Assembly: GCA_003223455.1 (NCBI GenBank)
Contig: QHVE01000033.1
Location: 4,439-42,086, forward strand
Length of the DNA: 37,648 bases
Origin: Gemmatimonadota bacterium
GTDB lineage: Bacteria > Gemmatimonadota > Gemmatimonadetes > Gemmatimonadales > Gemmatimonadaceae
Direction: 5' to 3'
This document shows, one piece after another, positions 2,349-35,563 of this stretch. The position numbers and the translations under genes are program-made. How positions within the stretch are numbered: position 1 is the first letter of the stretch; each line of letters opens with the position of its first letter. The notes beneath the pieces are model-generated. The model worked only from the letters and a program-made list of their open reading frames with translations, ran no database searches and was not told the origin of the DNA.

Positions 2349-5045
2349 GTGACCGCATCCGCGCTGGCCGCTTCGCTGGCCGACCGCTACCGCATCGAGC
2401 GCGAGCTCGGCGTCGGCGGGATGGCGACCGTGTATCTCGCGCACGACCTCAGGCACGATCGCCGCGTCGCCATCAAGGTCCTGCTGCCCGAGCTCGCCGC
2501 CGTGATCGGCGCCGAGCGGTTCCTCGCTGAGATCAAGACCACGGCGAACCTGCAGCATCCGCACATCCTCGCGCTGTACGACTCGGGGGTGGTGGACTCG
2601 TTTCTGTACTACGTGATGCCGTACGTGCAGGGCGAGTCGCTGCGCGACCGCCTGACGCGCGAGAAGCTACTCCCCATCGCCGATGCGGTGCACATCGCCG
2701 CTGAGGTGGCAGACGCCCTCGACTACGCGCACCGCCACGGCGTCATCCACCGCGACATCAAGCCCGAGAACATCCTGCTGCACGACGGGCGTGCGATCGT
2801 CGCCGACTTCGGCATCGCGCTGGCGGCGTCGAGCGCGGGCGAGCGCATGACGCAGACGGGGATGTCGCTCGGGACACCCCAGTACATGAGTCCCGAGCAG
2901 GCGATGGGCGAGCGCGCGCTCGACGCGCGTACGGACGTGTACGCGCTCGGCTGCGTGCTGTACGAGTTGCTCACGGGCGATCCGCCGTTCACCGGCTCGA
3001 CGGCGCAGGCGATCGTCGCGAAGGTGTTGACGGAGAAGCCGGCGGGAATCGTCGCGCGGCGCGAGCGCGTGCCGCGCGGCGTCGAGGAGGCGGTGCTCAC
3101 CGCGCTGGAGAAGGTACCGGCGGACCGCTTCGCGAGTGCGGCGGCGTTTCGTGCGGCGTTGACGTCGGACGCGCCGGCACAAGCCCGCGAGGCACGTCGC
3201 GGCTCAGGATCGTGGATCGAGCGTCGCTCGTCGCCGATCATCGCAGCGCTCGTCGTCGTCGCCGCAGGCGCGCTCGGATTCGCCGCTACGCGGCCGAGCA
3301 TCGTCGCGCCGAGTCGCGTCAATCGCTTCGCCCTCGCGCTCGGCGCGGGAGATGACGGGCTCGCCGCGGCGGGCGGGAACCGGTTCGCGTGGTTCCCCGA
3401 CGGTCGATCGTTCGCCTACGTGGGGTCGGGCGGTAGCGCCGGCACGCGGCTCTGGATCCGCTCCCTCGATGCGCTCGACGCCACTCCCGTCGCCGGCACC
3501 GACGGCGCCGTCTGTCCGTTCACCTCGCCGGACGGCACGCAGGTCGGCTTCGTCACCCGCGCACCGTTCACGCTGCGCACGGTCCCGGCGCAGGGGGGCA
3601 GCGTGGTCGAAGTGGCGGCCCAGGGTGTATCCGGCGGCTGCGCGGACTGGGGCAGCGATGGCTACATCTACTTCGACGCGGCGACGAGCATCTCGCGCAT
3701 CCGGCCCGACGGGACGGGCCGCGAGATGCTCTATCCGCTCGATACGGCGGGACGCGAAGTCGGCGTCGCCTGGCCGCAGTGGCTCCCCGGTGGCGTCGTG
3801 CTCTTCCGCGTGCGCCGCTCGAGCGAGGAGGTCGCGCGGTACGAGATCGTCGCGTTCGATCCGAAGACGCGGACGCGGAGATCGATCGTGCGCGCGACGT
3901 ACGCGCGGTACGCGCCATCCGGACATCTGCTGTACGTGCTCGCCGATGGGTCACTGATGGCGGCGCGCTTCGACGTGGGCCGCCTCGAGATCACGGGGAC
4001 CCCAGCGCTCATGGCGCGAGGCGTGGGAATCGCGGAGTTCGGTGTCGCCGACGTCGCGTTCTCGTCGAGCGGCACGTTGCTCTACACGACGGGCCGCGCC
4101 GGCGTATCGGCCGTGCCGGTGTGGGTCGATCGTACCGGCAAGGCCGTCGTGGCCGACGAGTCGCGGCGCGACCTCCTCGCCGACGGACTCGCACTGTCAC
4201 CCGATGGGGCCCGACTGGCGCTACATGTGGTCGCGCTGTCGAAGACGAGCATCAGTCGCACGGAAGACATCTGGGTGCAACAGCTTCCGGCGGGCGCGCT
4301 ATCGCGCCTGACCATGGAGGGAGAGCAGAATCGCCGCCCGAGCTGGTCGCACGACGGGCGCTACGTCCTCTTTCTGTCGAATCGCAGTGGAGTCGCGGCC
4401 CTGTACCGACAGCGGGCCGACGGCAGCGCCGCCGCGGAGCGCATCGCCGCGGATCCGCGCGGCATCGGCGAGGGGCTCGAGTCGCCGGACGGACGCTGGA
4501 TCATCATTCGGACCGAGGGCGGCGTCACTGGCAACGCCGACATCCTGGCGATGCGCGTTGGCGTGGACACCGCCCCCGTGCCGCTGATCGCCACCCCGTT
4601 CAGGGAGCGCGCACCGGCGCTCTCTCCCGACGGACGCTGGCTCGCCTACTCGTCGGTCGAGTCCGGGCGCGAGGAGGTATACGTGCGCCCCTTCCCCGAC
4701 GTGAACGCTGGGAAGGTGCAGATCTCGTCGGAGGGTGGTGTGACGCCATGCTGGAGCCACCGCGGCGACGAGATCCTGTACGTGGACGCGGCGCGGGACA
4801 TGATGGCGGCGAGCGTGCAGGTGCGGCCCACGTTCGCCGTGACGGGGCGGACGAAGCTCTTCTCTACCACGCCCTACGCCACGCCCTACGCCACGAGCGG
4901 GGAGCACGCGCAGTTCGACCTCTCCACGGACGACAAGCGCGTGCTCATGCTCGGCAGCGGCGACACCCGAATGCAGAACGAGGAGGAGATGCATCCGATC
5001 CTCGTCGAGAACTTCGTGGCGGAGCTGAAACGGCAACTGCCCTGA
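2349..5045 (+). CDS. Membrane Ser/Thr protein kinase with periplasmic beta-propeller
   Basis: An 898-residue PknB-type (Hanks) kinase. Glycine loop GVGGMATVY at 21-29, ATP lysine K43 (VAIKVL), catalytic loop HRDIKPEN with D136 and N141, DFG at 153-155, activation segment with GTPQYMSPE at 175-183. All catalytic residues are present, so an active kinase is expected. One membrane helix at about 296-314 separates the cytoplasmic kinase from about 580 residues outside. The outer part repeats the TolB/WD40-like 'SPDG+-aY' pattern (SPDGTQVGF, SPDGARLAL, SHDGRYVLF, SPDGRWIII, SPDGRWLAY), so a beta-propeller that may sense or bind a ligand. This kinase-propeller layout is common in Gemmatimonadota and Acidobacteria. 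Starts at GTG 2349. Substrates unknown. Confidence 0.92.
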   Translation: MTASALAASLADRYRIERELGVGGMATVYLAHDLRHDRRVAIKVLLPELAAVIGAERFLAEIKTTANLQHPHILALYDSGVVDSFLYYVMPYVQGESLRDRLTREKLLPIADAVHIAAEVADALDYAHRHGVIHRDIKPENILLHDGRAIVADFGIALAASSAGERMTQTGMSLGTPQYMSPEQAMGERALDARTDVYALGCVLYELLTGDPPFTGSTAQAIVAKVLTEKPAGIVARRERVPRGVEEAVLTALEKVPADRFASAAAFRAALTSDAPAQAREARRGSGSWIERRSSPIIAALVVVAAGALGFAATRPSIVAPSRVNRFALALGAGDDGLAAAGGNRFAWFPDGRSFAYVGSGGSAGTRLWIRSLDALDATPVAGTDGAVCPFTSPDGTQVGFVTRAPFTLRTVPAQGGSVVEVAAQGVSGGCADWGSDGYIYFDAATSISRIRPDGTGREMLYPLDTAGREVGVAWPQWLPGGVVLFRVRRSSEEVARYEIVAFDPKTRTRRSIVRATYARYAPSGHLLYVLADGSLMAARFDVGRLEITGTPALMARGVGIAEFGVADVAFSSSGTLLYTTGRAGVSAVPVWVDRTGKAVVADESRRDLLADGLALSPDGARLALHVVALSKTSISRTEDIWVQQLPAGALSRLTMEGEQNRRPSWSHDGRYVLFLSNRSGVAALYRQRADGSAAAERIAADPRGIGEGLESPDGRWIIIRTEGGVTGNADILAMRVGVDTAPVPLIATPFRERAPALSPDGRWLAYSSVESGREEVYVRPFPDVNAGKVQISSEGGVTPCWSHRGDEILYVDAARDMMAASVQVRPTFAVTGRTKLFSTTPYATPYATSGEHAQFDLSTDDKRVLMLGSGDTRMQNEEEMHPILVENFVAELKRQLP

Positions 5046-25195: not shown

Positions 25196-27493
25196 CTACA
25201 CCCCGATCCTCTCCCGCAACGCCACGAACCGGGGATCGCTCCGCAGCGGCGCGTATGCCGGCCGCACGCCGATGAACACGATCTCGGGGTCGCGCGCGTC
25301 GGCCGCGCGCGCGAGGGCCTCGATGGCGAGGTCAGGCTCGTCGAGCGCAGCGTGCACCTGCGCCGCGAGGCAGGGCGACACGTGGCGCGTCGCGGCGGTG
25401 GACGTCAGCGCGCGGAGCAGCGTGCGCGCCTCGTCGCGGCGGCCGCTGCGCGCGTGCGTCTGCGCGAGGGCGGCGAGCATCTCCGGCGTCCCACCCGACT
25501 TGTCGATCGCCGTGCGTAGCGAGGCCTCGGCGCCGACCAGGTCGCCCGCGTCGCGCAGCGCGCCGCCGAGGAAGTAGTGCGTCATCACGAACCCCGAGTC
25601 GATCTCCATCGCACGACGGAGTGCGCGCACCGCGCCGCCAAGGTCGCCCGACAGGTGGTACACCGCACCGACGCTGGTGGCGACGACCATGGAGAGCGGA
25701 TCGAGCGCGCGGGCGCGATCGATCGCGGCGCGCGCTTCGTCGAGCCGGCCCGTCGGCAGCAACAGGTTCAGCGCGCTCCACTGCCACGCCGTCGGATAGC
25801 GCGGGCTGAGGGCCTTCGCCCGCTGGAAGGCGTCCTCGGCGCCCGCCCAGTCCCAGTCGAACAGCGCGCGCACGGAGCCGAGTGTGGCGTACGCCTCACC
25901 CAGCGCCGGATGAATGGCCAGCGCGCGCTCGGCCGCGGCGCGTGCGCGCGGCATGACGGAGGCCGCCGGCTCCGCACCGTACACGCCGAGCATGAGCAGC
26001 GCGTCGGCGAGGCCGGCGAACGCGAGCGCGAACTCCGGATCCTCCCCGGTCGCCTCCTCGAAGAAGCGCGCTGCGGCGTGCAGATCGGTCTCCGTCCGCT
26101 TGTTGAGCGCGAACCGTCCACGGAGGTAGAGCTCGTACACGGCGCCGGCCACGTGGTCGCGCGTCGCCGTCGTCGACGCCTGAAGCAGGGTCACGGAGAG
26201 CGCGTCCGAGATGGCGCGCGCGATGTCGTCCTGGATCGCGAACGCGTCGTCGAACGAGCGGTCGATGCGGTCGGACCACATCTGGAATCCCGTGTGTGCG
26301 TCGACGAGCTGCGCGGAGACGCGCACGCGCTGTCCCGACAGGCGCACGCTGCCGTCGAGCACCGACGTGACGCCGAGCTGCTCGGCGATCGAGCGCACGT
26401 CCACGTTGCGGCCCTTGAAGGCGAACGACGAGCTGCGCGCCGCCACGCGGATCGTGCGCAGACGGCTGAGCGTCGTCATGACCTCTTCGGTGATGCCGTC
26501 GGACAGGTAATCGTTCTGCGGATCGCCGCTCAGATTGGTGAACGGCAGTACGGCGACCGACGGCATGCCGGCATCGCTGATCGTCGGCGCCCGGCGCAAC
26601 CCCGACTGCGTGCGCGCCGTCGCGGTCGCGCTCGTCGGCACGGGCGTGGCCGTCCCGCTGAGCATTCGCGCCAGTGCACCGGCCGTCGCCGGACGGTCGT
26701 CGGGCTCGAAGGCAAGAGCGGCGGCCACCGCGTCGTCGACGTGCGCCGGCACCTCGGGCCAGTACGACGAGACGCGCGGCGCCGTCTCCGTGAACCGGCG
26801 CGCGATCAGCGCACGCGCGCTCGGCGAGGAGAATGGACCGCACCCGCAGAGCATCTCGAACACCACCGTCCCCAGCGCGTATACGTCGCTGCGCCGATCG
26901 ATCTCGTCCGTCCCGACGGCCTGCTCCGGGCTCATGTAGGCGGGAGTGCCGAGGACGAATCCCTGCGATGTGACGTTCGTGTCGTTGACGGCGCGCGTCA
27001 CCGCCCGGGCGATCCCGAAGTCGGCGACCATGGCGTGGCCGCTCAGCAGGAGGATGTTCTCGGGCTTGATGTCCCGGTGGATGATCCCCGCCGCGTGCGC
27101 GTAGTCGAGCGCGTCCGCGACCTCACCCGTCAGCGCGACGGCCTCGTGCAGGGGGATGCGCCTGTCCCGGTCGAGCCGTCCGCGCAGCGACTCGCCCTCG
27201 ACGAACGGCATCACGTAGAACGGCGTCGAGCCGATGCTCCCCGAGTCGAGCAGGGGCACGATGTTGGGATGGGTCAGTCGCGCGGCGACGTGGATCTCGC
27301 GCACGAACCTCGTCGCCCCGTCCGTGCCCGTGAGCTCCCCGCGGAGGAGCTTGATCGCCACGGGTCGCTCGTGCTTCGTGTCCAGCGCGAGATACACCGT
27401 CGCGGCTCCACCGCTGCCGAGCAGCCGCTCGATGCGGTACGTCGGGGCGAGCGCATCGCGAACGAACGCGAGGGAGGAGGATGTCTCGGGCAA
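25196..27493 (-). CDS. Ser/Thr protein kinase with TolB-like and TPR output
   Basis: A 765-residue kinase. Glycine loop GSGGAATVY at 26-34, K48, catalytic loop HRDIKPEN (139-146, D141), DFG at 158-160, GTPAYMSPE at 182-190: all catalytic residues intact. There is no membrane helix after the kinase. Residues 310-435 match the TolB-like N-terminal domain found behind bacterial kinases and transcription activators (SVAVLPFTNLSGDPQNDYLSD, SVLDGSVRLSG, VDAHTGFQMWSD). Residues 490-765 are TPR repeats (ALGEAYATLGS, PTAWQWSALN, GDLGGAVRALRRAM), probably binding partner proteins. The start is uncertain: TTG 27493 (PETSSSLAF) or TTG 27508; ATG 27619 would lie upstream of the likely promoter (-10 at 27549-27554) and add an unnatural Arg/Gly-rich leader. 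Confidence 0.88.
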   Translation of the reverse strand: MPETSSSLAFVRDALAPTYRIERLLGSGGAATVYLALDTKHERPVAIKLLRGELTGTDGATRFVREIHVAARLTHPNIVPLLDSGSIGSTPFYVMPFVEGESLRGRLDRDRRIPLHEAVALTGEVADALDYAHAAGIIHRDIKPENILLLSGHAMVADFGIARAVTRAVNDTNVTSQGFVLGTPAYMSPEQAVGTDEIDRRSDVYALGTVVFEMLCGCGPFSSPSARALIARRFTETAPRVSSYWPEVPAHVDDAVAAALAFEPDDRPATAGALARMLSGTATPVPTSATATARTQSGLRRAPTISDAGMPSVAVLPFTNLSGDPQNDYLSDGITEEVMTTLSRLRTIRVAARSSSFAFKGRNVDVRSIAEQLGVTSVLDGSVRLSGQRVRVSAQLVDAHTGFQMWSDRIDRSFDDAFAIQDDIARAISDALSVTLLQASTTATRDHVAGAVYELYLRGRFALNKRTETDLHAAARFFEEATGEDPEFALAFAGLADALLMLGVYGAEPAASVMPRARAAAERALAIHPALGEAYATLGSVRALFDWDWAGAEDAFQRAKALSPRYPTAWQWSALNLLLPTGRLDEARAAIDRARALDPLSMVVATSVGAVYHLSGDLGGAVRALRRAMEIDSGFVMTHYFLGGALRDAGDLVGAEASLRTAIDKSGGTPEMLAALAQTHARSGRRDEARTLLRALTSTAATRHVSPCLAAQVHAALDEPDLAIEALARAADARDPEIVFIGVRPAYAPLRSDPRFVALRERIGV

Positions 27494-27548
27494 GGCGGCG
27501 GCGCGCAAGCCTGGCGTTCTGGCGCGGATGCGTGGTGCGAACCCGTCT

Positions 27549-27554
27549 AGTATA
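27549..27554 (-). promoter_or_regulatory. Probable -10 element of the 25196-27493 kinase gene
   Basis: Minus-strand TATACT (27554-27549), close to consensus, gives a transcript start near 27542. No convincing -35 hexamer is seen 17-18 bp upstream. If correct, translation must start at a TTG around 27493-27508. Confidence 0.4.
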
Positions 27555-27606
27555 CCGCCGTGGCCGCCCGAGGGTAGCCGCGATTCGCGAACTCGGCGCC
27601 CGGTCG

Positions 27607-27612
27607 TAAGTT
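27607..27612 (+). promoter_or_regulatory. Probable -10 element of the UPF0182 gene, leaderless
   Basis: TAAGTT ends 5 nt before ATG 27618, so transcription would start at or next to the start codon. There is no Shine-Dalgarno upstream of this ATG, consistent with a leaderless mRNA. The -35 region is weak (TTCGCG at 27584-27589, 17-bp spacing). Confidence 0.4.
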
Positions 27613-27617
27613 CGGAC

Positions 27618-30539
27618 ATGCCCGACCTCGTTCCCGACGACGATCCCTTCATCCGCAGCCTGCGGGACGCCGGCATCCGGCCGCCGCCGCGCCTGCGTCG
27701 ATCGAAGACGGGCCGCCCGCCGCGGCCGCCGCGGTTCGCCATCGGCGCGGCGATCGTCCTGTTCGTGCTCGTGATCGTCCTGCCGGGCCTCACCGGCCGG
27801 CTCGCCGACTGGCTCTGGTTCACGGAGATCGGCTACGAGCGCGTCTTCTTCACGAAGATCGCCGCGCAGTGGAGCATCGGCTTGGTGAGTGGCGCGATCG
27901 CGTTCGCGGTGCTCTACGGCAATGCGCGCTACGCACTGCGCGGCCTCGTCGTGGGCGAGGCGCGCGTGCGCGAGCCCATCACCGACATCACCGCGATGGC
28001 CACCGCGGTCGGCGCGCACGCCGCGCGCCTGATGCGTGTGCTGGCGCTGCCGTGGACCGCGCTCATCGCCTTCGTCGTCGCGCTCTCGATGGCGTCGCAG
28101 TGGAACACGGCGCTGCTGGCGATGAACCGCACGCCATTCGGAACGACGGATCCCATCTTCGGGCGCGAGATCGGATACTACGTGTTCGTGCTGCCGGCCA
28201 TCGAGGCCGTCGTCGGGTTCGCGTTCTCGCTCGTGCTCCTGTCGCTGCTGCTCGTCGCGATCCCGATCCACTTCGCGCGCTCCGAAGCGGGGCACGATGG
28301 GGAAGTGCTCGTCATCCCCGCGCAGGCCCGCCAGCATCTCGCGGTGCTCGCCGCGCTCGCGCTGCTCGTGCTCGCGGTGCGCACGGAGCTGGTGAGCCTG
28401 CCCGGCCTCCTGTTCGGCGAGCACCTCCCCCTCTCCGGCGCGAACTACATCGACCTCCACGTGCGCATTCCGGCGCTGCACGTGCTGGCCATCGCCGCGC
28501 TCGTCGGAGCGGGGCTCATCGCCTGGAGCGGCGTGCGTGGACGGATGGCGTACGTCGCGGCGCGCGTCGTCGTCGCGTACGTGGCGCTCGTCGTGCTCTC
28601 GGTGCTCGTGCCGGCGGCGTACCAGCGGCTCGTCGTCCAGGCCAACGAGCTGTCGTACGAGACGCCGCAGATCGCGCATCACATCCAGGCCACGCGCGAC
28701 GCGTGGGGGATCGCCACGGTCCAGCTCCACGAGCTCGGCACCGCGACCGACCTGACGCCGGCGACGATCGCCGCCAACCGCGCGACGATCGACAACGTGC
28801 GACTCTGGGATCGCGAGCCGCTGCTCCAGACGTTCGGGCAGCTCCAGTCGATCCGCACGTACTACGATTTCGTCTCGGTCGACGACGACCGCTATCGCAT
28901 CGGCGGACAGGTGCGGCAGGTGATGCTCTCCGCGCGCGAGCTGGACACCGACGCGCTGCCGACGAAGGGCTTCATCAACGAGCATCTGACCTACACGCAC
29001 GGCATGGGCGTCACCCTCGGCCCGTCGAACGAGGTGACGGCCGAGGGATTGCCCGTCCTCTTCATCAAGGACCTGCCCCCCGCGTCGAGCATCCCGCTGC
29101 CGATCACGCGGCCGCAGATCTACTACGGCGAGCAGTCGAACGACTTCGTGCTCGCGCCGAGCGGCCAGCGCGAGTTCGACTACCCGGCCGGCGAGGGAGA
29201 TGCCGCCGTCTACTCGACGTACGACGGCCGCGGCGGCGTGCCGGTGGCGTCGTTCGCGCGGCGGCTGCTCTACGCACTCAACTTCGGGTCGTTCAACATC
29301 CTCCTCTCGCGCGACGTCACGTCCCGCACGCGCATTCTCTATTACAGGAGCGTCGCCGAACGCGCGCAGCGTGCGCTTCCGTTCCTGAACTTCGACCGCG
29401 ACCCGTACATGGTCGTCGCGAGCGACGGTCGACTGAAGTGGCTCATCGACGGCTACACGGCGACCGACCGGTACCCGTACTCGCAGCCGCTGTCGGACGG
29501 CACCGACTACATGCGCAACGCCGTGAAGGTCGTGATCGACGCCTACGACGGCGACGTCGCGGCGTACGTCGCCGCACCGGACGATCCGATCGTCCGCACG
29601 CTCGCGAAGATCTACCCCGGCCTGCTCCGCCCGCTCGCCGAGATGCCGGCGGACCTGCGCGCGCACATCCGGTATCCCGAGGATCTCTTCCGCGTGCAGA
29701 CCGCGCTCTACGCCACGTACCACATGGCGAATCCGGAGACCTTCTACCACCGCGAGGATCAGTGGCAGGTGCCCGGCGCCGCGGCGATCAGCCAGTCGAG
29801 CGCGAGCGAGCGCGCGTCGGCCGGCGGCCGGATCGCGGGCGAGTCGTTCCTCCGCCACATGGTGATGCGCCTGCCCGGCGAGAGTGCGCCGGAGTTCATC
29901 CTCATGCGGCCATTCACCCCGCGGCAGAAGGACAACCTCGCCGCGTGGATGGTCGCGCGAAACGACGGCGCGAACTACGGCAAGCTCGCCGTGTACCGCT
30001 TCCCTCGGCAGAGCCTCGTGTTCGGCCCGAACCAGATCTCCAACCGGATCAATCAGGACACCGAGGTGTCGCGCCAGATCTCGCTGTGGGATCAACGCGG
30101 GTCGGAGGTGCTGCGCGGCGAGCTGCTCGTGATCCCCATCGAAGGCTCGCTGATCTACGTGCAGCCGCTGTACCTGCGCGCCCAGGGTGGGCGCATCCCG
30201 GAGCTGAAGCGCGTCGTCGTGGCGCAGGAGGGCCAGGTGGCGATGGCCGAGACGCTCGACGCCGCGCTTCGCGCGCTGTTCGGCGAGGCGCGTGCGGCCG
30301 CGACGCGCGAGACGGTCGCGACCGCGCCTCCTGCTGGGGCGGCGGCGCCCAGGCCGCCCACCGCCGACACGGCGACGGGCACGACGACGGCGGATCTCGC
30401 GCGCCGCGCGAACGAGCACTACGAGCGGGCGCGGGCGGCACAGCGCGCCGACGACTGGGCGACCTACGGCGAGGAGATGAAACGGTTGGGTGACGTGCTG
30501 CGCCAGCTCGGTGCGCAGCGGAGCGCTGCCCCGCGGTAG
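27618..30539 (+). CDS. UPF0182 family membrane protein
   Basis: A 973-residue protein of the UPF0182 (COG1615) family, normal length. The N-terminus is Pro/Arg-rich and cytoplasmic, followed by about seven membrane helices in the first 320 residues (the first at about 41-60: IGAAIVLFVLVIVLPGLTG) and a characteristic RLADWLWFTEIGYERVFFTK. The remaining 600 residues are a large extracytoplasmic region with family motifs such as YYDFVSVDDDRY, GFINEHLTYTHGMG, YYGEQSNDFV, NGVKVV-like YMRNAVKVVIDAYDGDV and RYPEDLF. A Pro/Ala linker leads to a C-terminal helix pair (HYERARAAQRADDWATYGEEM) also typical of the family. Biochemical function is unknown. Divergent from the kinase at 25196-27493; apparently leaderless. 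Confidence 0.93.
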   Translation: MPDLVPDDDPFIRSLRDAGIRPPPRLRRSKTGRPPRPPRFAIGAAIVLFVLVIVLPGLTGRLADWLWFTEIGYERVFFTKIAAQWSIGLVSGAIAFAVLYGNARYALRGLVVGEARVREPITDITAMATAVGAHAARLMRVLALPWTALIAFVVALSMASQWNTALLAMNRTPFGTTDPIFGREIGYYVFVLPAIEAVVGFAFSLVLLSLLLVAIPIHFARSEAGHDGEVLVIPAQARQHLAVLAALALLVLAVRTELVSLPGLLFGEHLPLSGANYIDLHVRIPALHVLAIAALVGAGLIAWSGVRGRMAYVAARVVVAYVALVVLSVLVPAAYQRLVVQANELSYETPQIAHHIQATRDAWGIATVQLHELGTATDLTPATIAANRATIDNVRLWDREPLLQTFGQLQSIRTYYDFVSVDDDRYRIGGQVRQVMLSARELDTDALPTKGFINEHLTYTHGMGVTLGPSNEVTAEGLPVLFIKDLPPASSIPLPITRPQIYYGEQSNDFVLAPSGQREFDYPAGEGDAAVYSTYDGRGGVPVASFARRLLYALNFGSFNILLSRDVTSRTRILYYRSVAERAQRALPFLNFDRDPYMVVASDGRLKWLIDGYTATDRYPYSQPLSDGTDYMRNAVKVVIDAYDGDVAAYVAAPDDPIVRTLAKIYPGLLRPLAEMPADLRAHIRYPEDLFRVQTALYATYHMANPETFYHREDQWQVPGAAAISQSSASERASAGGRIAGESFLRHMVMRLPGESAPEFILMRPFTPRQKDNLAAWMVARNDGANYGKLAVYRFPRQSLVFGPNQISNRINQDTEVSRQISLWDQRGSEVLRGELLVIPIEGSLIYVQPLYLRAQGGRIPELKRVVVAQEGQVAMAETLDAALRALFGEARAAATRETVATAPPAGAAAPRPPTADTATGTTTADLARRANEHYERARAAQRADDWATYGEEMKRLGDVLRQLGAQRSAAPR

Positions 30540-30620
30540 CGCGGCCACGACCGTGCCGTGGTACTAAGCGAACGAGGCGCTCGCGGCCTCCAACCGAGAC
30601 TCACCACTCGGGAGCGTCCC

Positions 30621-31340
30621 ATGAAGAAGCTCGTGCCGGCCGTCGTCGGAGTCCTGCTGCTCGCGTCCACCGCCGCGTACTCGGCGTTCGGTGGGTGGGC
30701 CGTGGTGAAAGTCTCGAAGATCCCGGACGCGTGGGTGGCCGGAAAGCCGCTGCAGCTCTCCTGGCAGGTTCGGCAGCACGGAGTCAGGCCGATGGGTCCC
30801 GAGGACCAGCTGCATCCCACATTGGAGGCGCGATCGGGCTCGCGCGTCGTGCAGGGCACGGCGGCGGCGTACGTCGAGGAGGGGTGGACGGGCTTCCGCG
30901 GCACGATCGTCTTCCCGACGACGGGCGACTGGCAGGTCACGATCAATAGCGGTTTCGGCGGCGCGCGCGCCGTACTGGTGCCCTGGCGCGTCGTGGATTC
31001 GGTGCGCACGATCCGCGGCACGGTCGAGGAGCACCTCGCGACCCTGGGCATCCCGCGCTTCAGCGAGGTCGAGCGTGGGCGGAGGCTGTTCGCGGCGCAG
31101 GGGTGCGTGACCTGCCACGTACACCGCGACGTGGACGTCACTGGACAGATGAGTACCGTGGGCCCGGAGCTCACCGACCGGCGCCTCCCCGCCGACTACC
31201 TCGCGAAGTTCCTCGCGAACCCATCAATCAAGCCGCAGACCGCCGGCAAGCCCCAGATGCCGAACCTCGAGCTGCGGGAGAAGGAGATCGTCCCGCTGAT
31301 CGCGTTTCTCACCGCCGAACGGCACGCCGCAGCCAGGTAG
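30621..31340 (+). CDS. Exported c-type cytochrome with N-terminal beta domain
   Basis: A 239-residue exported haem protein. Residues 1-24 are a signal or membrane anchor (KKLVPAVVGVLLLASTAAYSAFGG). Residues 25-125 form a beta-rich, Ig/FixH-like domain (LQLSWQVRQHG, FRGTIVFPTTGDWQVTI). Residues 145-235 are a class I cytochrome c domain with haem motif CVTCH at 162-166 and axial Met probably M213 in KPQMPNL. It should carry electrons on the outside of the membrane; no oxidase or reductase gene is next to it. GGAG at 30611-30614 precedes ATG 30621 by 6 nt. TACTAA near 30561-30566 after TGG could be an extended -10 element. Confidence 0.85.
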   Translation: MKKLVPAVVGVLLLASTAAYSAFGGWAVVKVSKIPDAWVAGKPLQLSWQVRQHGVRPMGPEDQLHPTLEARSGSRVVQGTAAAYVEEGWTGFRGTIVFPTTGDWQVTINSGFGGARAVLVPWRVVDSVRTIRGTVEEHLATLGIPRFSEVERGRRLFAAQGCVTCHVHRDVDVTGQMSTVGPELTDRRLPADYLAKFLANPSIKPQTAGKPQMPNLELREKEIVPLIAFLTAERHAAAR

Positions 31341-31412: not shown

Positions 31413-32288
31413 ATGAGAACGGAGACACAGGCGCTTCCCAACACTCGCAAGCCGCGCGACGACGAGATCGACGTACACGGACTCACGCACGCCGGCCGGA
31501 TACGCAAGGAGAACCAGGACCACTTCCTCCTCGCAACGGTCCACAAGCGGGTCGACGTCATCGCGACGAATCTGGGACGGCAGGAGCAGCTTCCCACGGG
31601 CGAGCAGCGCGTGGCGTTCCTCGCGATGGTGGCCGACGGCGTCGGTGGTTCGGAGGGTGGCGCCGAGGCGAGCGCCACGGCGCTCGAGTCGGTGATGCAG
31701 TACGTGAACGACAGCATGTCGTGCCTGTTCGACCGTAACGTCGCCGAGTCGACGTTCACGGACATGCTCCAACGCTGCGCGCTGCGCTCACACGAGGAGA
31801 TCCTCGCGCGCGCGAAGGCGAACGAGCAGCACCGCTCGATGGCGACGACGCTCACGCTGTTCATGGGTGTGTGGCCGGCCTACTACCTCGTGCAGCTCGG
31901 CGACTCGCGCTACTACCTGTGGCGCGAGGGGCGGTTGACGCAGATCACGCGCGACCAGACGCTGGCGAACGACCTCGTGGACCAGGGAATCCTGTCGCGC
32001 GCGCAGGCGCCGCACACGCAGTTCGCGCACGTGCTCTCGAGCGCGCTCGGCGCGGACACGGCGGAGCCGGTGGTGACGCGGCTCCGCGCCGAGTGGGAGA
32101 ACGTGCACCTGTTGTGCAGCGACGGGCTGACGAAGCACGTGAGCGACGAGCGGATCGCCGAGCGGCTGGCGAACATGACGAGCTCGAAACAGGTGTGCGA
32201 GCAGCTGCTGGCCGACGCGCTCGAGGATGGCGGGACGGACAACATCACGATCATCGTGGCGCAGGGGGTACCGAAGGACGTCGGGTGA
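31413..32288 (+). CDS. PP2C-family Ser/Thr protein phosphatase
   Basis: A 291-residue soluble metal-dependent phosphatase of the PPM/PP2C group. Motifs in order: KENQD with D36, VADGVGG with D75 and G76 (metal binding), TTLTLF at 145-150, LGDSRYYL with D164, CSDGLTKHV with D237, and GGTDNITIIV with D276/N277. All metal-binding Asp are present, so an active enzyme removing phosphate from Ser/Thr is expected. An insertion at 45-65 (RVDVIATNLGRQEQLPTGEQ) precedes the DGVGG motif. AAAGAGG lies 10 nt before ATG 31413. It is 50 bp upstream of a kinase-BRCT gene on the same strand, so the pair is likely to act on the same targets, the usual kinase/phosphatase arrangement. Confidence 0.93.
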   Translation: MRTETQALPNTRKPRDDEIDVHGLTHAGRIRKENQDHFLLATVHKRVDVIATNLGRQEQLPTGEQRVAFLAMVADGVGGSEGGAEASATALESVMQYVNDSMSCLFDRNVAESTFTDMLQRCALRSHEEILARAKANEQHRSMATTLTLFMGVWPAYYLVQLGDSRYYLWREGRLTQITRDQTLANDLVDQGILSRAQAPHTQFAHVLSSALGADTAEPVVTRLRAEWENVHLLCSDGLTKHVSDERIAERLANMTSSKQVCEQLLADALEDGGTDNITIIVAQGVPKDVG

Positions 32289-32325
32289 GAAATTGACCGC
32301 GGTCGCGGGCCGAGCCTGCCCCTGG

Positions 32326-32331
32326 TAGAAT
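32326..32331 (+). promoter_or_regulatory. Probable -10 element of the kinase-BRCT gene, leaderless
   Basis: TAGAAT (32326-32331) ends 7 nt before ATG 32339, the distance expected when transcription starts at the start codon. No Shine-Dalgarno is present and no good -35 is visible. It suggests that the kinase-BRCT gene can be transcribed separately from the phosphatase. Confidence 0.45.
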
Positions 32332-32338
32332 CCGTCAT

Positions 32339-33502
32339 ATGCCCACCCAGTCCGTGCCGCCCGCCGCCCGGCGTGCGAGCTACACGCGCCACCTCGACCG
32401 TCGGCCGGGCGCGGCGCCGGCGATCCCTGCGCCGCCCACGGCACACAGCTCGGAGACCGGCCGCACCTATCGCCTCGACCGGCTGATCGGAAAGGGCGGG
32501 TTCGGCGAGGTCTATCTCGCCACGCCGTCTCCCGCGCAGGGTTTCCCCGACAAGGTCTGCATCAAGATCAGCGACCGACTCTCCGGGTGGCTCCGCGAGG
32601 CGTACTTCGCCGAGCTGCTCGCTCGCGAGCCGCGCGCGCTCCGCGTCTACGACCGCTTCGCCGACGCGAGCAGCGGTGCGATGCGCTACTACCTCGCCAT
32701 GGAGTACGCGGAGCACGGTGACCTCGGGAGCTGGCTGGAGAAGGTGGGCGCGCAGTCCGAGCGGTTCGTCCGGCGCGAGCTCGCGGCCATCGCAGGAGCA
32801 CTGGATGCATTGCATCGAGGGCATGCCATGCACCGCGACCTCACGCCGTTCAACGTGTTCGTGTGCACGGGCAACCAGCTCAAGCTGGGCGACTTCGGCA
32901 TCGCCACGCACCAGCTCAACCCGCGTGGCGTCACGGCGGACGCGTTCAATCTCTTCCACGTGCCGAACGAGATCGCGTGGGGCCGCGTGCGCCGCTGGCA
33001 GAAGCGCGACGACGTGTACCAGATCGGCCTCCTCGCGGCGATGCTGCTCCGCGGCGACACCACGACGGTGATGCGGAGCAAGGACGTGCGCACGCTCCCG
33101 TGCAGCGATCATTTCAAGGAAGTGATCCACTGCTGCCTCGGCTCGCGCGGCAAGCGCTACGAGTCGGCGCGCGAGTTGATCGCCGCGCTGCGCAAGCCAC
33201 CGAGGGAGCCGAGCCTCGGCCGCACCGACAGTCTGAAGGGGAAGCGCGTGTCGTTCACCGGCTTCCTCGTGCGTCCCCGCGCCGACGCGATCGCCGCGGC
33301 GAGGAAGGCGGGCGCGCTCGTGCAGTCCAAGCCGGGTCCGTCGACGGACATCCTCGTGCGCGGGCGCCCGAACGCGCAGCAGATCGCCGGCAAGGACGGC
33401 GGCTCGAAGCTGATCGAGGTGCGACGGCTCGCCGCACAGGGGATCAAGGTGACCGTGATCGGCGAAAGACAGTTCTGGAAGCTTGCCGCCGCGAAAAAGT
33501 GA
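32339..33502 (+). CDS. Protein kinase with C-terminal BRCT domain
   Basis: A 387-residue soluble protein. An N-terminal Pro/Arg-rich tail (1-42) leads into a Hanks-type kinase: GKGGFGEVY at 51-59, K76 in VCIKI, catalytic loop HRDLTPFN at 165-172 (D167 and N172 kept; Thr169 replaces the usual Lys), DFG at 185-187. The segment after DFG lacks a normal APE and runs FHVPNEIAWGRVRRWQKRDDVYQIG. Residues 298-383 form a BRCT domain like that of NAD-dependent DNA ligase: LKGKRVSFTGFLVRPRADA, AGALVQSKPGPSTDILV, KLIEVRRLAAQGIKVTVIGERQF. BRCT domains bind DNA ends, phosphopeptides or partner proteins of DNA repair, so this kinase may act near DNA damage or replication (inference). It lies 50 bp after the PP2C gene. 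Confidence 0.85.
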   Translation: MPTQSVPPAARRASYTRHLDRRPGAAPAIPAPPTAHSSETGRTYRLDRLIGKGGFGEVYLATPSPAQGFPDKVCIKISDRLSGWLREAYFAELLAREPRALRVYDRFADASSGAMRYYLAMEYAEHGDLGSWLEKVGAQSERFVRRELAAIAGALDALHRGHAMHRDLTPFNVFVCTGNQLKLGDFGIATHQLNPRGVTADAFNLFHVPNEIAWGRVRRWQKRDDVYQIGLLAAMLLRGDTTTVMRSKDVRTLPCSDHFKEVIHCCLGSRGKRYESARELIAALRKPPREPSLGRTDSLKGKRVSFTGFLVRPRADAIAAARKAGALVQSKPGPSTDILVRGRPNAQQIAGKDGGSKLIEVRRLAAQGIKVTVIGERQFWKLAAAKK

Positions 33503-33671
33503 GTTGGTTGGTTGGATAGCTGGCTAGTTGGTCGGTGAACTAGTGAACTGAACGGGCCCTGGCTACAACCAGCGTGAAGATCCCTCAGCGGGGCTTCCAC
33601 GCCGGTTGTGACCAGGGCCGTCAACTCACCAATCAACCGACCAGCCAACCAACGATCCAACTCACCAACTC
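33501..33671. repeat. 171-bp imperfect palindrome (hairpin element)
   Basis: The whole gap between two convergent kinase genes folds on itself. Left arm 33501-33562 (GAGTTGGTTGGTTGGAT... GGGCCCTGG) matches the complement of the right arm 33612-33671 (CCAGGGCC... ATCCAACTCACCAACTC) with scattered mismatches. Inside, ACAACCAGCGTG pairs with CACGCCGGTTGTG and GAAGATCCC with GGGGCTTC. The arms are built of TTGG/AGTTGGT units. It may be a mobile palindrome of the MITE/REP type and may also terminate transcription from both sides. Confidence 0.7.
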
Positions 33672-33676
33672 ACCCC

Positions 33677-35563
33677 TCAAAGTCCCCTCACCTCCCCCGC
33701 CGCCTCGAGCGCCACTCCGATGTCTCTCGACAGCGCCCGTGCTTCCTGCGTCGCGCTCGACACGTCGGCCAGGCCGGCCTCGAGCCCTGACGCACGCAGC
33801 TTGAGCAGGTCGAGTCGGAGGTTCCCCAGCGCGAGCACCGCCTGCTCGACCTGGTGCGCGAGCGTGACGCGCTGTCGCGCGAGGTGCTCGAGCGACACAC
33901 GCTGCCGGCGCAGGAGCGCGATCTCACGCAGCTCCTCGGTCGAGCTGTCGGTGCGCTCCGCCTGGGCGATGCGGGTCGCGACTGCTGATGCCGCCGCCGG
34001 ATCGTAATCGGTGTCGAGCCGCTGGAGCGTCGTCGCCAGATGTGCCACGCGCTCCACCAGTGCGTTCACCGTCGGCACGACGTCGGGGAGCAGCTCGCGA
34101 TCGGCCTTCGACAGCTTCTTCACGACGTCGAGGATCGCCGCGCGCTCCTCGGCGGCGCGGCGGATCGCCGCGCCGTGCGCGCTCTCCAGCACGGCGCGCG
34201 TCGCGATCTTGCGGAGCTGGCGGCTCGTCGGCAGCGGCGCCGCGGCGAACACGCGCCACGAACGTCGAGAGAACAGGACACGGCGCAGCCGCAGGCCGGC
34301 CAGGCGCAGCGATGCGCCCCGACGCGCCAGCGTGACGGTCATGACGATCGGCACGAGCGGGCCCACGATGAGCGGCGGCGCCTCGGCGACACCGAAACCG
34401 AAGCTGATCATGCCGAGCGTCCACGCGCCGGCCGTGTACAACGTATATCGTCGGAACGTTTTCACCCGGTCGAGCAGGTTCACGCGACCCGCCCAGAGCC
34501 GGAGGTCTTCCCGCTGCTCCGCGGTGAGCGACGCGAGATGGGGCGGCTCGAGCACGAGACCATTCGCCGACACGACCGGCATCGCCGTCGCGCCGCCGTC
34601 CCCTTGGGCGATGCGCGACCGGGGCACGGGCGACGCCGAGTCCCGCTTGTTGCGCGGCACCGGCGACGGATAGCGCACCGGCTCGCGCTCGCTCCGCCAC
34701 GACGGCGCCTCGCTCCCCTGCAGCAACGCGTCCCTGAACGCCGACGCCGTCGGCCACCGGTCCTCGGGCGCCTTCTTCAGCGCGCGCTCGATCGCGTCGC
34801 ACATCGCCTTCGGCGCCTCGGGTCGCAGCTCCGCGATCGGACGCGGTCGCTCGCTGACGTGCTTGAGCAGCAGCGCCATCGAGTTCCCCGCCGTGAACGG
34901 TGGCCGCCCCGTCAGCATCTGGTAGCCGAGCACGCCGAGCGAATAGAGGTCGCTGCGGCCGTCGAGATCGCGCTCACCCACCGCCTGCTCGGGGGACATG
35001 TACGTCGGAGTGCCGAGTGCGGCGCCGGTGAGGGTGAGTCGCGTGCTCCCCTCGATCGCGCGGGCGATGCCGAAGTCGGTCACGATCGCGCGGCCGCTCT
35101 CGGCGTCGAGCAGGATGTTGTCCGGCTTCACGTCGCGATGGATGACGCCGCGCAGATGCGCGTACGCGAGTGCGTCGGCGGTCTCGCAGAGGAGTCGCCG
35201 CACCTCGTCCACCGGCCGCCGCGGCTGATGCTCGAGCAGCTGCGCGACGTTGCCGCCGTCGACGAGCGCCATCACGAAGTACGCGATGCCGTCGCGCTCG
35301 CCGACGTCGTAGATGGGGACGATGTGGGCGTGGGCGAGCTGGGCCGAGGTCTGCGCCTCGCGGGTGAAGCGCGTGCCGAGCGCCGGGTCGAGCGCCAGCT
35401 CGGGCGGGAGGACCTTGATCGCCACGTGCCGCTCGAGCCTGAGGTCGCGGGCGCGGTAGACGACGGCCATGCCTCCCCGCCCGATCTCGTCCTCGATCTG
35501 GTACTGCTGGCGCAACGCGGCGGCGACGCGGTCGCGCAGGGAGTCGGGGGGAATGGCGGTCAT
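33677..35563 (-). CDS. Membrane-associated Ser/Thr protein kinase with coiled-coil tail
   Basis: A 628-residue kinase. Glycine loop GRGGMAVVY at 28-36, K50 (VAIKVL), HRDVKPDN at 142-149 with D144, DFG at 163-165, GTPTYMSPE at 184-192; fully conserved and presumably active. A Ser/Pro/Arg-rich linker (285-345) follows. Then comes a short segment LTAEQREDLRLWAGRV and two hydrophobic stretches at about 373-392 and 396-412, probably a membrane hairpin that would leave both ends in the cytoplasm. Residues 445-628 are helical with heptad-like Leu/Ala patterns (LERVAHLATTLQRLD, LEHLARQRVTLAHQVEQAVLALGNLRLDLLKL), a likely coiled coil for dimerisation. This architecture recurs in Gemmatimonadota. No beta-propeller sensor. 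ATG 35563 lacks a clear Shine-Dalgarno. Confidence 0.9.
   Translation of the reverse strand: MTAIPPDSLRDRVAAALRQQYQIEDEIGRGGMAVVYRARDLRLERHVAIKVLPPELALDPALGTRFTREAQTSAQLAHAHIVPIYDVGERDGIAYFVMALVDGGNVAQLLEHQPRRPVDEVRRLLCETADALAYAHLRGVIHRDVKPDNILLDAESGRAIVTDFGIARAIEGSTRLTLTGAALGTPTYMSPEQAVGERDLDGRSDLYSLGVLGYQMLTGRPPFTAGNSMALLLKHVSERPRPIAELRPEAPKAMCDAIERALKKAPEDRWPTASAFRDALLQGSEAPSWRSEREPVRYPSPVPRNKRDSASPVPRSRIAQGDGGATAMPVVSANGLVLEPPHLASLTAEQREDLRLWAGRVNLLDRVKTFRRYTLYTAGAWTLGMISFGFGVAEAPPLIVGPLVPIVMTVTLARRGASLRLAGLRLRRVLFSRRSWRVFAAAPLPTSRQLRKIATRAVLESAHGAAIRRAAEERAAILDVVKKLSKADRELLPDVVPTVNALVERVAHLATTLQRLDTDYDPAAASAVATRIAQAERTDSSTEELREIALLRRQRVSLEHLARQRVTLAHQVEQAVLALGNLRLDLLKLRASGLEAGLADVSSATQEARALSRDIGVALEAAGEVRGL

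Follow-up and report, generated by a model that had tools for sequence, protein, structure and literature searches.

Positions 32339-33502 (+ strand) of the window, by which the whole 37,648-nucleotide stretch analysed here is meant, encode a 387-residue protein that joins a Hanks-type kinase domain to a C-terminal BRCT domain. The source genome (Gemmatimonadota) is 4.96 Mb in size, and the open reading frame, which matches the Pfam Pkinase model at 2.3e-22 (80.1 bits against a cut-off of 31.7), aligns over its full length with 24 homologues. This protein, termed kinase-BRCT here, may be a soluble, stand-alone kinase that is held on DNA by its BRCT domain, phosphorylates proteins there and is perhaps activated by the DNA, a reading to which we assign a probability of roughly 0.5. 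A literature search combining BRCT, protein kinase and Gemmatimonadetes returned no match, and one combining BRCT, Hanks-type and bacteria returned only the archaeal Rio1 kinase, which has another layout (subscription papers lay mostly outside both searches). The domain fusion has apparently gone undescribed so far.

The BRCT domain (33230-33487, + strand; residues 298-383) carries invariant T307-G308, P313-R314, K357 and F379-W380. The Pfam BRCT model, applied to the isolated domain of a single sequence, scored 17.8 bits (E 0.004), below its cut-off of 21.3. In contrast, the NCBIfam model PRK06195 / NF004844, which represents DnaQ-type exonucleases with a BRCT domain, matched 86 residues at the kinase-BRCT C-terminus at 1.1e-7, and the family profile retrieved the Thermus LigA BRCT from the PDB at 7e-4. 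A fold search with the full-length model returned kinases only, as the kinase fills the search, and the BRCT domain was therefore predicted and searched alone. Its AlphaFold model (pLDDT 83) exhibits the canonical order b1-a1-b2-b3-a2-b4-a3, and BRCT domains are its leading structural matches. The top match is the BRCT of Rfc1 in complex with nicked or gapped DNA (Z 10.2, 1.9 Å over 74 residues, 32% identity), followed by LigA (Z 10.1, 1.8 Å over 75 residues), whereas the phosphopeptide-binding BRCTs of Rad4 and TopBP1 rank lower (Z 8-9). The conserved tryptophan of BRCT motif II is found within the F379-W380 pair in all 24 sequences. Although Pfam alone is weak, the NCBIfam model, the fold and the 24 homologues settle the identity of the C-terminal domain as BRCT. 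Its assignment to the DNA-ligase type, made in the initial annotation from the letters of the sequence, is borne out by both the profile searches and the predicted structure.

Residues G301, T307, G308, L310, R314, G325, G342, K357 and L364 are identical in an alignment of kinase-BRCT, exonuclease-BRCT and the BRCT from the LigA of the window genome. Among them, T307-G308 (following strand 1), R314 (helix 1) and K357 (helix 2) are invariant in the family and are common to the LigA and exonuclease BRCTs. The domain is strongly basic throughout the family, with a net charge of +7 to +15 (mean +11.3). The LigA BRCT encoded in the own genome has a net charge of 0, and the exonuclease BRCTs have one of +1 to +3. 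The Thr/Ser-X-Lys signature of phosphopeptide-binding BRCTs (PMC10386641), which would be located at helix 2, reads Gly355-X-Lys357 in all 24 sequences. LigA without its BRCT has a lower affinity for double-stranded DNA (PMC10504179), and a recessed 5' end is bound with the help of the Rfc1 BRCT (PMC9293004). Taken together, the pocket residues, the fold matches, the Gly-X-Lys motif and the basic charge favour DNA over phosphopeptides as the putative BRCT ligand; the basic domain could instead bind RNA or acidic proteins. The earlier idea that the BRCT domain could place the kinase on DNA thus gains support from the invariant Thr-Gly, Arg and Lys residues and from the charge of the domain.

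If the BRCT domain read phosphoproteins in the manner of BRCA1 or TopBP1, the kinase would dock on its own product and spread phosphorylation along a complex. Thr307-Gly308 and Lys357, at positions of the type that phosphopeptide-binding BRCTs use to grip the phosphate (PMC10386641), are invariant, which is consistent with such docking, as is the presence of TopBP1 and Rad4 among the structural matches. We nevertheless consider it unlikely, given the glycine in place of Thr/Ser in the signature of all 24 sequences, the single rather than tandem arrangement of the BRCT, and the fact that the nearest BRCTs in both sequence and fold are of DNA-binding types.

Most homologues extend beyond the BRCT domain in a C-terminal tail rich in lysine and arginine, and the window protein lacks this basic tail. 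A palindromic element of ~173 bp (window 33499-33680) starts at the kinase-BRCT stop codon. Its outer arms are 53 nt long (75%) and its inner arms 22 nt (86%), and the DNA fold z-score is -7.75. The 76 matches in the own genome, for the most part counted on both strands, correspond to ~40 copies at 70-96% identity, and the element belongs to a MITE- or REP-like family. Since the tail found in most homologues is missing from the window protein, the element may have removed it.

A genome-wide search of 298 Gemmatimonadota genomes found kinase-BRCT in 19, the window's own among them. All 19 carriers belong to a single order, Gemmatimonadales (19/172), in which they are distributed over two families and 13 genera; three further members of the window's genus were sampled, and none yielded kinase-BRCT. 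The other proteins of this 298-genome sample are 62-79% identical to that of the window, and a scan of public genomes adds closer homologues, up to 87% (locus L022). Over the 24 aligned sequences, identity to the window protein is 69-90% in the kinase and 60-93% in the BRCT domain, so that the two domains are equally conserved, and dN/dS values of 0.05-0.17 (kinase) and 0.00-0.08 (BRCT) indicate purifying selection on both. The equal conservation together with the low dN/dS argues that the fusion is an old and selected protein rather than a chance read-through. In two homologues, L039 and L041, the reading frame is broken, apparently by decay in a single genome or by an assembly error. Identity between kinase-BRCT proteins is often higher than that between the corresponding LigA proteins (79% vs 67% for genome G246 and 72% vs 59% for G137, but 70% vs 73% for G241), a pattern consistent with slow evolution, some gene transfer and extensive loss.

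No kinase-BRCT was found outside Gemmatimonadales in the sampled genomes, which reflects sampling and is no proof of absence. The BRCT profile returned none at 1e-3 from 39 kinase-rich genomes of other phyla (a search run without a positive control), and its only matches among 140 genomes from another phylum were NAD-ligase-type proteins (4e-8). Viral contigs and plasmids likewise contained no kinase-BRCT relatives. One close match (L034) lies in a contig labelled Chloroflexi; because it is nearly identical to L043, the contig is taken for wrongly binned Gemmatimonadota sequence. When the family BRCT profile was applied to the 298 genomes, the only proteins matched outside the family were exonuclease-BRCT proteins (E ~5e-12), and the BRCT domain was thus likely taken from a protein of the exonuclease or ligase kind. 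The exonuclease-BRCT genes are doubled in two genomes, G045 and G224 (L154 and L155, 405 aa; L150 and L151, 339 aa). The copies are nearly identical in their exonuclease and BRCT parts, and one copy carries ~100 extra N-terminal residues.

The neighbourhoods of the kinase-BRCT gene vary between genera, seldom have genes in common and are mostly not concerned with DNA repair. A scan of ~40 flanking proteins for operon function disclosed no common theme, the recurrence of AlkZ-like glycosylases, LigD polymerase, DinB-superfamily and Uma2 proteins being limited to a few loci. Genes for AlkZ-like DNA glycosylases directly adjoin kinase-BRCT in L037 (7194-8225) and, on the opposite side, in L040 (4777-5901), and a LigD-type polymerase lies 0.5 kb from it in L027. 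The kinase-BRCT gene seems to stand alone. Ku is present in 18 of the 19 kinase-BRCT genomes as against 82 of the 153 genomes of the order that lack kinase-BRCT (p = 0.00035). Counted by genus, the corresponding figures are 12/13 and 37/47 (p = 0.43), and one carrier genome (G210) has no Ku that was seen; the co-occurrence is a suggestive lead only. The window's own genome contains two Ku genes (C4:20876-21376 and C113:45234-45773).

A solitary gene with a patchy distribution (19/172 genomes of the order) and changing surroundings might also encode a kinase of the PD-T4-6 / Stk2 type that acts alone against phages; its BRCT domain would sense phage DNA ends or replication and trigger an abortive response. 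The PADLOC models mad6 and PD-T4-6 match the protein at 1e-25, and identities above those of LigA for some distant genera, as in G246, would fit gene transfer. The two models, however, cover the kinase domain only and fit kinases in general; no defence genes were recognised among the flanking proteins scanned; no relatives appeared in viral contigs or plasmids; and the slow evolution of the family contrasts with the rapid divergence typical of defence genes. An anti-phage role is accordingly judged quite improbable.

The kinase domain (32447-33205, + strand; residues 37-289) comprises a GKGGFG loop, K76, the HRDLTPFN motif (165-172) and D185. G51, G53, G56, K76, H165-R166-D167, N172 and D185 are invariant in the 24 aligned sequences. 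The catalytic-loop lysine (HRDxKPxN) is replaced by Thr169 in every one of them and its replacement is a family trait; the activation segment, which lacks a GTPxYMAPE-like stretch, is atypical and is kept in this form throughout the family. The full-length predicted fold gives PknB, Aurora A and AAK1 as top structural matches (Z ~18-19; 18.6 for PknB). The description given at the outset, a Hanks-type kinase with K76, D167 and D185 retained and Thr169 in place of lysine, thus holds for the whole family. In the alignment of the family, no membrane segment was evident. The window codes for further Hanks-type kinases at 33677-35563 (-), at 25196-27823 (-), which has TPR repeats, and at 2349-5045 (+), which has WD40-like (PD40) repeats.

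Because the catalytic-loop lysine is absent, kinase activity is not assured. The family-wide Thr169 and atypical activation segment would be compatible with a pseudokinase, a scaffold or ATP-dependent switch in which the BRCT is the working part. Retention of the glycine loop, K76, H165-R166-D167, N172 and D185 in all 24 sequences would be needless in a non-catalytic domain, and makes this very unlikely.

The PP2C phosphatase gene (31413-32288, + strand; 291 aa) ends 50 bp before the kinase-BRCT gene on the same strand, and both reading frames were confirmed at the positions originally described. The product matches the PP2C_2 profile at 2.4e-10 (40.8 bits against a cut-off of 24) and an Stp1-type model at 5.9e-52, yet under the equivalog cut-off of the latter, and the metal-binding motifs D36, D75, D237 and D276 are present. 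The flanking sequence upstream of the PP2C gene codes for a small protein with a cytochrome c-like domain (CxxCH; 1.3e-5) at its C-terminus (30558-31340) and, before it, for a 1101-residue UPF0182 family protein of unknown function (27234-30539; 2.5e-257). Bacterial Hanks kinase genes commonly stand in a pair with one for PP2C, and the initial annotation had drawn from this arrangement a small reversible-phosphorylation switch. A survey of relatives does not sustain that proposal. PP2C relatives occur in 216 of the 298 Gemmatimonadota genomes, and no kinase lies within ~1.5 kb of the phosphatase gene for the 29 best of these relatives elsewhere; conversely, no PP2C gene was found in the flanks of any other kinase-BRCT locus examined. 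The nearest homologue, L022, has the same two downstream genes as the window, an epimerase and a HEAT-repeat protein, but an antisense gene of another kind occupies the place of PP2C upstream, and no PP2C lies within the 497 bases covered on that side. The kinase gene at 33677-35563 (-), situated between kinase-BRCT and the epimerase in the window, is missing from that place in L022. PP2C was rejected as a conserved kinase-BRCT partner, the pair being unique to the window genome among the loci examined. Judged by the lack of a conserved neighbourhood, which the initial annotation had named as refuting, the switch fails, whereas the kinase-BRCT fusion stands. A dedicated reversible-phosphorylation pair, to which the 50-bp spacing on one strand in the window would point, is hardly credible in view of its absence from the other kinase-BRCT loci, from the 29 best PP2C relatives and from the syntenic L022. 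The neighbouring phosphatase may still reverse the phosphorylation in the window strain, outside any conserved module.

We return to the reading in which kinase-BRCT is addressed to DNA. The C-terminal BRCT domain would hold the kinase on DNA, with nicks, gaps or recessed 5' ends as the most likely sites, and the kinase so held would phosphorylate proteins working there, such as repair, recombination or cell-division factors. DNA binding perhaps also activates the kinase. Several observations weigh against this proposal, namely the mixed neighbourhoods, the Ku link that is gone when counted by genus, the carrier without Ku, the missing catalytic-loop lysine, the window protein without a basic tail, and the other three sampled genus members without kinase-BRCT. 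In bacteria, DNA-damage signalling is mostly thought of as RecA/LexA. A bolder and distinctly tentative extension is a one-protein bacterial DNA-damage checkpoint kinase, in which the BRCT domain would itself recognise a nick or 5' end and trigger phosphorylation of proteins for repair, end joining or division. Such a protein would be an analogue of the eukaryotic damage kinases, formed by the independent fusion of a Hanks kinase with an exonuclease/ligase-type BRCT. The conserved family would provide a directly testable case of a bacterial kinase sent to DNA lesions by a module of eukaryotic damage signalling.

The kinase fold is shared with PknB-type kinases, and the pairing of PknB with Stp1-type phosphatases resembles the PP2C adjacency in the window; kinase-BRCT differs from that type in having no PASTA part, in reading HRDLT for HRDLK and in that its pairing with PP2C is not conserved. 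In bacteria, the main proteins known to contain BRCT domains are DNA ligase and a polymerase III epsilon-type exonuclease (reviewed in PMC10386641). The BRCTs of LigA and Rfc1 resemble that of kinase-BRCT in fold (Z ~10) and in the Thr-Gly, Arg and Lys positions, but share only ~30% identity with it and are joined to a ligase or a clamp loader. The LigA BRCT of the own genome, in addition to its zero net charge, is without the ~9-residue insert that precedes Lys357 of kinase-BRCT. The DnaQ-type exonuclease-BRCT proteins contain the nearest relative of the kinase-BRCT BRCT domain, likewise in a C-terminal position, and occur in the same phylum (L149-L155); in contrast, their catalytic part is an exonuclease and their BRCT is far less basic.

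Among bacterial kinases, the damage-responsive Ser/Thr kinase RqkA of Deinococcus radiodurans resembles the present proposal in its link to the DNA-damage response, and differs from kinase-BRCT in that the abstract describing it mentions no BRCT domain (PMC6052341). YabT of Bacillus subtilis is a DNA-activated Hanks kinase that phosphorylates RecA (PMC3708118, PMC6333020) and acts on other genome-maintenance proteins as well. Both YabT and kinase-BRCT would be Hanks kinases tied to DNA, which has been shown for the former and is proposed here for the latter. YabT is membrane-anchored and binds DNA through a short basic juxtamembrane stretch, whereas kinase-BRCT has an entire BRCT domain C-terminal to its kinase. 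Hanks kinases that carry an extra targeting domain are already known; the novel point is that the module is a BRCT and not a basic stretch or a membrane sensor.
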